Source: an uncultured Butyrivibrio sp.
GTDB taxonomy: Bacteria; Bacillota; Clostridia; Lachnospirales; Lachnospiraceae
Length of the DNA: 33,600 nucleotides
Reading direction: 5' to 3'
NCBI GenBank assembly: GCA_946546925.1
Contig: CAMNOS010000014.1
Location: 1 to 33,600 of the forward strand
In this document: piece by piece, positions 4,737-7,099 of the stretch
How the letters are laid out: the number at the start of each line of letters is the position of its first letter
Numbering within the stretch: position 1 is the stretch's first letter
Position numbers and translations under genes: made by a program
The notes under the pieces: model-generated
The model's input: only the letters and a program-made list of their open reading frames with translations
What the model was told of the DNA's origin: nothing
Database searches by the model: none

Positions 4737-6461
4737 TTACTCATTGACAGCATTCCGGTAGTCTCCGTACTGTGCCTCATAAGTGCTGTAGTAAAGTCCT
4801 CTCTTTGCAATGAGCTCGGCGTGGGTTCCACGCTCTTTTACACTGCCGTGTTCAAGGACAATGATCTCATCTGCGTCCTTCACCGAGGATATCCTGTGAC
4901 CGATGATGATCTTGCTGGTATCTTTCTTTTCCCTGAGTTCCTTCTGTATTGCAGCCTCCGTCTCCATATCAAGGGCGGATGTGGAATCGTCAAGTATGAG
5001 CAGTTCTGCCTTCTTGGCCAGAGCCCTGGCTATGGAAAGTCTCTGCTTCTGTCCACCTGAGAGGCCTATTCCCCTCTCACCTATCACAGCGTCGTAGCCG
5101 CCTGTTATCTTCTCCACAAATTCCGTGGCATGCGCGCTCTTTATGGCAGATCTTACTGTCCTCTCATCGCAGCTGTCCTTGCTGCCGAGTCTGACATTCT
5201 CCGTAATGGTGTCGGAAAAAAGAAATACATCCTGGGTTACCACTGAGGAAAAAGCCCTCACATCCTTTAGCGGCATCTTCGATACGTCTTTTCCATCAAT
5301 GCTGATTCTGCCTTCGTTGGCATCATAAAATCTCTCTATCAGATTGACGATGGTACTCTTTCCGGCACCGGTAGCACCCATTATGCCCAGAGTCTGTCCT
5401 CTCTTTATGGAAAAAGAAATGTCTCTCAATATCTCTTTTCCATCCATCCTGAAAGACACATTCTCAAATTTCAGTTCTCCCTTTTCGCCTCGTATCTCTC
5501 CTTCACTTTCCTCGGAATCCTGTATCTGAGGTTTTACTTTGAGAATCCTGTTGATCTTCTTGTAGCCGGCAAGCCCCTGCGAGATCAGTGACAGCATCCA
5601 TCCAAGGTTTTCAATCGGCCAGACAATGCTGATCGAATATGAGACAAACGCCACCAGTGTTCCGTATGTGATGCTGCCGTTTATTGCCGCGAATCCACCA
5701 ATCGCTACGACAAAGGTCTGCATGATCTTGGGAATCACTCCAAGAAGCGGATCTGTATCCGCAAGATCCTGCGCAAATTTCTTGTTGGCATCGCCGTATG
5801 CAAGGTTCTTCTCGTCAAACTTCTTCATTTCATAGCTCTCGGCAGAAAAAGCTTTCACAGTCCTTACACCTGAGATATTCTCTTCCACAACCTTGGTAAG
5901 AGCGGCATTTTTCTCACTTATATCGTCATAATCCCTGCCAAGTTTCTTCTCCAGATGAAGGGCAATATAAGCAAGTGGCGGCATGAACACAAGGGGAACA
6001 AGGCTCAGCTTCCAGTTGAGTCGCACCATGCAGACAACAACTCCTATAAAGTAGACTGCTGCCTCTGTGATGAGCATCCCGACAAATCCCGTCAGATCCC
6101 AGACAGCGCCGGCATCCTCCCTGACTCTCGCCATGATCTCACCCGTGTTGTTCTTGTCGAAGTAACCCTTGTGCAGTGAAAAGATATGCTTCATCATGTC
6201 TTTTCTGAGTCCCGAAGCCACACGGCATCCCGACATGTCACACAGAAACTCCTTTGCAAACTGAAAGAGCGCACGCGAAAGACCTGCTGCCACATACAGA
6301 AAAATATCCCTTCTGAATATGTCCATATTCCTTCCCACAATTACGTCATCCACCATGGAAAGGGTTATAAACGGTACCAGTATGTCCACTGCAGTGCTGA
6401 GTATCAGGCATATTCCGCCAATGGTATACCGCCACCAGTTTCTGATAATATATTTTTTCAT
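4737..6461 (-). CDS. ABC exporter half-transporter, degenerate-site subunit (BmrC/LmrC-like)
   Basis: About 574 residues: exporter membrane domain (about 10-310) then an ATPase domain. Counting from the GTG at 6470, Walker A is GATGAGKS (365-372), the Q-loop Gln is 413, the signature is a normal LSGGQ (470-474), Walker B is LLILDD with Asp at 495 where the catalytic Glu should be, and the switch His is 525. Asp for Glu marks the degenerate nucleotide site of heterodimeric exporters and fits the LSNGQ of the partner encoded next. The frame can open at GTG 6470, but I prefer ATG 6461: AAAAGGGA is too close to the GTG and better spaced for the ATG. It is first in the exporter operon, about 100 bases downstream of the leader-peptide terminator. 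Confidence 0.9.
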   Translation of the reverse strand: MKKYIIRNWWRYTIGGICLILSTAVDILVPFITLSMVDDVIVGRNMDIFRRDIFLYVAAGLSRALFQFAKEFLCDMSGCRVASGLRKDMMKHIFSLHKGYFDKNNTGEIMARVREDAGAVWDLTGFVGMLITEAAVYFIGVVVCMVRLNWKLSLVPLVFMPPLAYIALHLEKKLGRDYDDISEKNAALTKVVEENISGVRTVKAFSAESYEMKKFDEKNLAYGDANKKFAQDLADTDPLLGVIPKIMQTFVVAIGGFAAINGSITYGTLVAFVSYSISIVWPIENLGWMLSLISQGLAGYKKINRILKVKPQIQDSEESEGEIRGEKGELKFENVSFRMDGKEILRDISFSIKRGQTLGIMGATGAGKSTIVNLIERFYDANEGRISIDGKDVSKMPLKDVRAFSSVVTQDVFLFSDTITENVRLGSKDSCDERTVRSAIKSAHATEFVEKITGGYDAVIGERGIGLSGGQKQRLSIARALAKKAELLILDDSTSALDMETEAAIQKELREKKDTSKIIIGHRISSVKDADEIIVLEHGSVKERGTHAELIAKRGLYYSTYEAQYGDYRNAVNE

Positions 6462-6557
6462 AACAATCACATCCCTTTTAAGTCTGATAAAAATGCAAAT
6501 AAAAAACGACAGGATTATGGAGATCCCGCCGCATTAGACACATTTACAAAAGTGTAT

Positions 6558-6596
6558 AAAAAAGGCGTGGCCTCCATATCGGATACCACGCCAAAA
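6558..6596 (-). terminator. attenuator terminator upstream of the ABC exporter operon
   Basis: On the minus strand GGCGTGGTATCC (6581-6592) pairs with GGAGGCCACGCC (6564-6575) across a 5-base loop: ten Watson-Crick pairs, one GU and one mismatch. TTTTTT follows (6558-6563). It lies between the leader ORF stop and the exporter start, so it should block exporter transcription unless the competing structure forms. Confidence 0.85.
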
Positions 6597-6640
6597 CTGC
6601 AAAAGTAACCTGAAATCAGGTAAACTCAGGCGAGGTAACC
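6581..6640 (-). promoter_or_regulatory. predicted antiterminator pairing
   Basis: The 12 bases GGTTACCTCGCC inside the leader ORF (6629-6640, minus strand) can pair with GGCGTGGTATCC (6581-6592), the 5' arm of the terminator: ten Watson-Crick pairs and two U-U mismatches. The same arm cannot be in both helices. A ribosome finishing the leader ORF (stop 6616-6618) would cover the upstream partner and favour termination; one held near the start would leave it free and favour read-through. No folding program was run. Confidence 0.7.
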
Positions 6641-6684
6641 ACTTCTTCCATATCCAGTAAATTGTTGTTTCTGATTCTTAACAT
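6616..6684 (-). CDS. 22-residue leader peptide of the ABC exporter operon
   Basis: A short ORF with an excellent ribosome site: AAAGGAGG ends about 8 bases before the ATG. The peptide begins MLRIRNNNLL, has an acidic middle (DMEE) and ends TSPEFT before TGA. It has no signal sequence or double-glycine leader site, so it does not look like a secreted bacteriocin. The terminator lies 20 bases past its stop codon, and part of the ORF (codons for Val-Val-Thr-Ser-Pro) is the antiterminator arm. This matches the BmrB-BmrCD arrangement in Bacillus subtilis, where drug-slowed translation of a leader ORF lifts termination; BmrB itself is longer. The peptide sequence probably matters mainly as a translation sensor. 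A small cargo peptide of the exporter is the alternative. Confidence 0.75.
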   Translation of the reverse strand: MLRIRNNNLLDMEEVVTSPEFT

Positions 6685-6744
6685 TGTGCTTACCTCCTTT
6701 CGTCTGATTTGTCTAATAATTTATTGTTCTAACTGACAACTCTT

Positions 6745-6773
6745 AAGCTACTCTAATTGACCGCCGTTGTCAA
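6745..6773 (-). promoter_or_regulatory. putative promoter of the leader ORF and exporter operon
   Basis: A perfect -35 box TTGACA (6768-6773), then 17 bases and a weak -10, TAGCTT (6745-6750). A second, poorer candidate has TTGTCA at 6734-6739. The -35 is convincing and the -10 is not, so the exact start site is uncertain. Confidence 0.45.
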
Positions 6774-6799
6774 CAGTAATATGAAAAAAAGTTTCATTT

Positions 6800-7099
6800 T
6801 TACACTGAAGATATCACAAGCTTTTGGGGCTCAACGTTTCTCATCTCGCCCTTTCTGCCGCGGCACACGATGCCCTTCTCTATTGTGATCATGTGAGCAT
6901 GGGCTTTCATGGCCTCATTTATCTGCTTTACAGCATTTTCATAATCCTGTGGTGTCATGGGGATTACGTAGTCATGATTCAAATGTTCTGTAGATATCAT
7001 GGCTGAGCGGAATCTCGGAACATAACGGATTCCGTAGAAAGTACATATCTCCGTGTTCAGCATTCCGCTGTTGTCTGAGCACTGCATTGAAATATACAT
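6800..7099 (-). CDS. hypothetical protein, 99 residues
   Basis: I do not recognise a family. The start is well supported: GAAAGGGGGG ends 6 bases before the ATG. The product is soluble, with no membrane segment or signal peptide. It has two Cys in the first 20 residues, a helical middle (about 50-70: PQDYENAVKQINEAMKAH), then a basic patch, KGIVCRGRKGEMR, and a short hydrophobic end. Downstream lie only a weak hairpin and then the exporter promoter. It could be an independent small gene; nothing ties it functionally to the exporter or to the chemoreceptor upstream. Confidence 0.6.
   Translation of the reverse strand: MYISMQCSDNSGMLNTEICTFYGIRYVPRFRSAMISTEHLNHDYVIPMTPQDYENAVKQINEAMKAHAHMITIEKGIVCRGRKGEMRNVEPQKLVISSV

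Follow-up and report, generated by a model that had tools for sequence, protein, structure and literature searches.

Several comparable regulatory leaders have been described in bacteria. In Bacillus subtilis, ribosomes stalled by drugs on an upstream open reading frame (uORF) of vmlR block an anti-antiterminator (PMC9226507), and bmrB-bmrCD of the same species encodes a heterodimeric multidrug ABC exporter which is drug induced and preceded by a translated leader (PMC4191407). The uORF toiL of the Escherichia coli toiL-topAI system senses ribosomes arrested at the start codon, as by tetracycline or retapamulin (PMC12121999), and the ABC-leaders are premature-terminator attenuators 5' of ABC transporters, one of them at a multidrug export operon of lactobacilli (PMC2965389). 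Here we analyse a leader located 5' of two exporter genes in a 33,600-nucleotide (nt) stretch of DNA, hereafter the window, from an uncultured Butyrivibrio sp. of the Lachnospiraceae (GCA_946546925.1, contig CAMNOS010000014.1). We consider it probable that this leader is a ribosome-controlled transcription attenuator, the sensor of which is the occupancy of its own ribosome-binding site.

Three segments are central to this reading: X, the Shine-Dalgarno (SD) region of a short leader open reading frame (ORF); Y, close to the end of that ORF; and Z, the 5' arm of the intrinsic terminator that precedes the exporter genes (Table 1). Comparison of orthologous loci shows that they have been kept such that Y is predicted to pair with either X or Z. 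As in vmlR, the predicted order is anti-antiterminator, antiterminator and terminator, with ribosome arrest on a uORF and control of an antibiotic-response gene (PMC9226507). In vmlR, according to the published account, the uORF(MIN) has three codons inside SL-1 and the SD is single-stranded before it, whereas here the SD would itself be the anti-antiterminator arm, most ORFs run to some 20-50 codons and bear the shared partner at their end; the regulated gene is an ABC-F gene in the former case and an ABC exporter in the latter (PMC9226507). By analogy, the leader is best read as working in the manner of vmlR with a different architecture. With bmrB it shares a translated leader, three alternative stem-loops and a heterodimeric exporter downstream (PMC4191407). 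As described, however, the bmrB structures are predicted within nt 60-162 of a 162-nt ORF with the SD uninvolved, and the role of the anti-antiterminator was left unclear by its authors (PMC4191407); whereas a bmrB-type anti-antiterminator would lie inside the ORF without the SD, here the SD is predicted to form one arm. The use of a uORF as sensor of start-arrested ribosomes recalls toiL, which acts through topAI translation and Rho-dependent termination rather than an intrinsic terminator (PMC12121999). The ABC-leaders likewise place a premature terminator 5' of ABC transporter genes, but their description, as far as it goes, mentions neither a leader ORF nor SD pairing and concerns other taxa (PMC2965389). 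What is predicted to be new with respect to these systems is the SD itself as anti-antiterminator arm, with its partner at the end of the leader ORF. Among the titles and opening abstract lines listed by a literature search, none described an attenuator with the SD as switch arm, which is weak evidence of novelty since subscription papers were mostly outside its coverage.

A preliminary description, made from the DNA letters and their open reading frames, had proposed a 22-codon leader ORF with a strong SD, followed by an intrinsic terminator and two exporter genes, and a direct reading of the coordinates bears this out; the translatable leader ORF sits between a promoter-like site and the terminator. 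It had also matched the terminator 5' arm to a segment of the leader ORF, which we confirm: GGTTACCTCGCC (6640-6629) and GGCGTGGTATCC (6592-6581) pair at 10 of 12 bases, a match equalled in 58 of 20,000 cases when the leader codons were shuffled. Overlooked at that time was the third partner, X, which makes the arrangement a three-way switch. In the minimum-energy fold of 6700-6490 the leader SD (6696-6690 and 6688-6686) pairs with 6642-6640 and 6638-6632, and the terminator also forms; the fold has an energy z of -4.25, and none of 200 shuffles folds as well. The X:Y duplex amounts to -17.2 kcal/mol, reached by 36 of 2000 codon shuffles. Since one ORF segment, Y, serves both X and Z, anti-antiterminator, antiterminator and terminator would be mutually exclusive, in that order. 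The single-locus odds for both pairings are moderate, and it is the comparative evidence that secures them.

Orthologs of exporter half A were collected by protein search (E<=1e-150) in 397 genomes of the family, 70 of which have one, and 5' DNA was taken for all 70 loci as far as contigs allow (4 nt in one, 403-451 nt in four). On inspection the relatives show the same layout but different leader peptides, which vary in both sequence and length. Leaders were then chosen by a rule blind to X:Y and Y:Z, its sole criteria being the strength of the SD, the length of the ORF and the position of the terminator. It finds a leader in 59 of the 70 loci, with a stop codon that matches the pairing-guided pick in 59/59. 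In this set the X:ORF duplex is stronger in own than in cross combinations (-14.9 vs -11.6 kcal/mol; 0/5000 permutations), as is that of the ORF with the terminator 5' half (-13.7 vs -10.9 kcal/mol; 0/5000), and the control with the 3' half gives 2523/5000. The first test, in which the choice of leaders was partly guided by X:Y energy, gave for 62 leaders an X:ORF value of -14.9 own vs -11.6 cross (0/5000) and, for 59 loci, -13.9 vs -10.8 with the terminator 5' half (0/5000; control 3182/5000). Two of its 64 picks had been dropped (G076, G060), three replaced by hand and some start codons moved upstream, steps that the blind repeat did without. X and Z bind one ORF segment (at least 5 nt of overlap) in 55 of the 59 loci, with 26.7 expected. 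Furthermore, the SD weakly resembles the terminator 5' arm (X:3' half, 38/5000; control X:5' half, 1863/5000). These comparisons point to a conserved antiterminator that excludes the terminator, and to attenuation by a translated leader as the preliminary description had proposed; the competing pairings are kept in relatives.

Base covariation was assessed in the 42 of 59 loci that have GAGG in the SD and, past codon 10 of the ORF, a single CCTC. The first base 3' of GAGG is paired in all 42 (T-A 27, C-G 10, T-G 5; shuffled 35.6) and the third in 36 (A-T 25, G-C 9, G-T 2; shuffled 29.9), values which none of 2000 shuffles reach. Pairing of the fourth base exceeds all but 31/2000 shuffles, the second is nearly invariant (A-T in 40/42), and among positions five to eight the best value across these loci is only 109/2000. 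There are two main classes, GGAGGTAA/TTACCTC and GGAGGCAG/CTGCCTC, and a smaller third one with TTGCCCC. In 39 of 42 loci the CCTC ends 10-34 nt 5' of the stop codon, where a terminating ribosome could reach it, and the spacing from start codon to Y is variable (39-111 nt). Searches at the DNA level revealed little of this: similarity search of 299 family genomes returned one clear relative, G290 (E 1e-8), the remaining matches being short and mostly noise-like, and strict patterns proved insensitive, one matching 4/397 genomes (the window and G290 among them), another 17/150 with a backward control pattern also matching in many, and two further ones 3/260 and 2/260.

Constrained folds were computed for the 59 loci with the transcript still lacking the terminator 3' arm, counting Z:ORF pairings of at least 5 base pairs. 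These form in 25/59 free transcripts, in 57/59 with SD and start covered, and in 5/59 with a ribosome at the stop codon. When the ribosomal P-site was moved codon by codon, the antiterminator fraction was 0.90-1.00 at codons 1-4 and 0.08-0.20 over the last seven codons, stop included, compared with 0.49 in the absence of a ribosome. The anti-antiterminator is thus predicted from sequence to be disruptable by a ribosome. Controls in these antiterminator folds are not low, at 0.78 for foreign terminator arms and 0.68 for shuffled ORFs, with 0.97 for the own ones. It should be added that full-length folds speak against the proposed switch, the terminator forming in 58/59 free transcripts, 51/59 with X covered and 55/59 with a ribosome at the stop. 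As it forms in 51/59 despite a covered X, antitermination must be kinetic, with the antiterminator forming first and holding.

We propose the following course of events. With no ribosome present, X:Y would form, the terminator would follow and the exporter would be off. Under normal translation the ribosome would open X:Y and cover Y at the stop codon, again resulting in termination. A ribosome arrested on the SD or start codon, or no further than about codon four, would cover X; Y would then be free as Z emerges, Y:Z would precede the terminator, and transcription would read through into the exporter genes. Because the SD of the leader doubles as an arm of the anti-antiterminator, the predicted ON signal is a ribosome held on the SD or start codon rather than one slowed anywhere. 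Consequently, of the BmrB-like mechanism put forward in the preliminary description, attenuation by a translated leader is retained and a drug-slowed ribosome at any place on the leader is given up. As the switch rests on RNA pairing, the peptide sequence would hardly matter, in agreement with the non-conserved peptide, and with the SD as one arm and its partner at the ORF end, sensing would need no particular peptide. We infer that ribosome-targeting drugs induce the exporter; by analogy with vmlR and toiL, likely inducers are those arresting ribosomes at or soon after initiation, e.g. pleuromutilins, lincosamides and tetracycline. If so, Lachnospiraceae would gain a general early-warning switch against ribosome-targeting drugs, and the control of one exporter by unrelated leader peptides would be explained. 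The covarying sites make the mechanism directly testable, and it suggests a route to such switches where peptide-based searches fail.

Other explanations have to be weighed. In leaders of the ermC and msrD kind, translation of a particular peptide is halted by a drug at one defined codon, and the stalled ribosome exposes an antiterminator. Such peptide-specific arrest, which we regard as unlikely here, would be compatible with the strong SD, implying leader translation, with the short motif that recurs near the leader end (TS or CL, depending on the class), with the codon-phase bias of CCTC in the leader ORFs (30/42), and with a Y..(T/A/P)SV-like end common to several leaders of RsgA-type genes (see below). 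However, apart from these recurrences the leader peptides show no apparent relationship in sequence or length. The residues that recur fall in codons of Y, a segment kept by base pairing, and in the folds a ribosome that has advanced so far lies over Y.

Alternatively, X:Y might only keep down the synthesis of a functional small protein, and 6592-6564 might be an ordinary terminator hairpin, with no switch at all. X:Y is the strongest pairing of the fold, and the stability of the terminator in the full-length folds given above fits this explanation, to which we nevertheless assign little probability: the ORF pairing with the terminator 5' half is kept and that with the 3' half is not, the leader peptide is non-conserved, and the terminator is located between promoter-like site and exporter. 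An amino-acid starvation attenuator of the trp/his kind is more improbable still. Leader ORF, antiterminator and terminator are all compatible with it, and asparagine and serine make up 10.4% and 10.0% of leader residues, but by eye no single-codon run is common to the leaders, the downstream genes encode exporters and RsgA-like GTPases rather than biosynthesis enzymes, and Clostridiales-1 is the sole Rfam family reaching its gathering score in the window. Chance complementarity at one locus, to which the moderate window-only odds would lend themselves, can be practically dismissed in view of the own-versus-cross tests across 59 orthologous loci, barring a flaw in their sampling.

The proposed attenuator may extend beyond this exporter. 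A pattern for one layout class, scanned over the GTDB species set, matched 18 stretches, 13 of them from Lachnospiraceae, Lachnoclostridium or Roseburia. Eleven of these have the leader layout; the other two (L114, L121) fall within a long open frame and are chance-like, as are the five outside the family, including L109, whose TTG frame has 15 codons. Relatives of exporter A lie downstream in 6/11 (L110, L112, L115, L117, L120 and, over 94 residues only, L123), L112 and L117 matching contigs of G164 and G161 and hence not being independent of the 70 orthologs. In L116 (5301-5437, minus strand) the layout precedes a less closely related ABC exporter (32% to exporter A), in L111 and L118 RsgA-like GTPases (TIGR00157 above cut-off; PF03193), likewise in L119 by eye only, and in L113 (7473-7998) an ABC-F fragment, the first 84 residues of a gene cut by the locus end, which is most like the OptrA model and, as expected of a fragment, far below the whole-protein cut-off. 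The shorter pattern GAGGTAAN{42,72}TTACCTC, run in nine genomes chosen for known leaders, found 11 places, nine of which look like leaders (six of exporters, two of RsgA-like and one of an NFACT/RqcH-type gene) and two chance-like; its backward control found 12, so that the pattern alone is non-specific. The NFACT_N (RqcH-type) case is L202 (1500-1660, G144), with the gene at 2216 and a 54-codon ORF in between.

RsgA-like loci were collected from 20 of 120 genomes, one per genome. By look, a leader is present in seven (L157, L158, L159, L161, L163, L164, L166), the strict detector calling two and the relaxed one six; with L166 (1-430, G000:C214), the layout occurs a second time in the genome of the window. 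Over 13 picks, including three from the GTDB-set scan, X:ORF pairing is significant (3/5000) and ORF:terminator pairing is not (658/5000); the picks retain the spurious-looking L152, L162 and L167, and L111 and L118 have nearly identical leaders. Regular membership of ABC-F genes is unsupported (0/30 strict, 1/30 relaxed; 30 loci from a longer list), and so is that of RqcH genes (0/6 with the relaxed detector, which also missed the G144 leader). We consider it an even chance that these leaders form an undescribed large RNA family of Lachnospiraceae, with the SD of a short ORF as sensor, an anti-SD close to the ORF end and a terminator 5' arm that partially mimics the SD. In such a family, start-arrested ribosomes of any cause would, with no specific peptide, switch on a translation-stress regulon of exporters, RsgA-like GTPases and occasionally an OptrA-like ABC-F or RqcH-type gene.

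Exporter halves A and B match many ABC exporter families in profile searches, with none above its own curated cut-off among the best 25 listed for each. Solved relatives include B. subtilis YheI (BmrC; 8t1p) and TM_0288 (3qf4), ranked behind ABCB-type transporters among the best 60 of 186. By eye, the catalytic-site motif is LLILDDST in half A and LILDEAT in half B; adjacent half-transporter genes with one degenerate catalytic site indicate a predicted heterodimeric ABC exporter.

The draft genome to which the window belongs, as contig C14, has 260 contigs and is 80.6% complete. On the minus strand of the window a 99-codon ORF (7099-6800) is followed by the promoter-like site, SD, leader ORF, terminator 1, a second hairpin and the two exporter halves. 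Among relatives, TTGAC occurs 150 to 20 nt 5' of the leader start in 53/55 leaders (5.4 expected by base shuffling) at a median distance of 82 nt from the start codon, four of the 59 leaders with less than 150 nt of upstream DNA being left out.

Table 1. Features of the exporter leader locus, with positions in the window
Feature	Position	Strand	Basis
Promoter-like site TTGACA-17-TAGCTT	6773-6745	minus	9/12 in window
Leader Shine-Dalgarno AAAGGAGGTAA	6700-6690	minus	direct reading
X, leader Shine-Dalgarno region, predicted to double as 5' arm of anti-antiterminator	6700-6685 (pairing part 6696-6686)	minus	sequence, fold, comparison
Leader ORF, 22 codons, MLRIRNNNLLDMEEVVTSPEFT; ATG 6684-6682, TGA 6618-6616	6684-6616	minus	direct reading
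Y, GTGGTTACCTCGCC, close to leader ORF end; predicted partner of X or Z	6642-6629	minus	fold, comparison
Z, terminator 1 5' arm, GGCGTGGTATCC	6592-6581	minus	sequence, comparison
Terminator 1, hairpin GGCGTGGTATCCGATATGGAGGCCACGCC (6592-6564), then T6 (6563-6558)	6592-6558	minus	sequence, fold
Second terminator-like hairpin; 5' half complementary to terminator 1 3' half	6532-6500	minus	sequence
Exporter half A, 574 aa, ATG at 6461	6461-4737	minus	
Exporter half B, 594 aa	4690-2906	minus	

The 5' half of the second hairpin pairs with the terminator 1 3' half at -21.5 kcal/mol in the window and -19.7 kcal/mol in the relative G290 (L003, 1711-1742), a strength found in 1/2000 and 0/2000 shuffles, respectively; the loop CTCCAT is kept between both species and the stem differs. 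In this pair antitermination could be relayed from terminator 1 to the second hairpin. As a general feature, such a relay is unsupported (own -10.2 vs cross -9.7, 940/5000 permutations; the 27 among 59 loci where a second hairpin is present).

Over the leader, Rfam 15 gave no family at gathering score and four sub-threshold matches within 6400-6800. For the 99-codon ORF, NCBIfam and Pfam give no match at E 0.001, and directly 5' of it lies the Clostridiales-1 RNA (RF01699; 7161-7323, minus strand, 85.3 bits).
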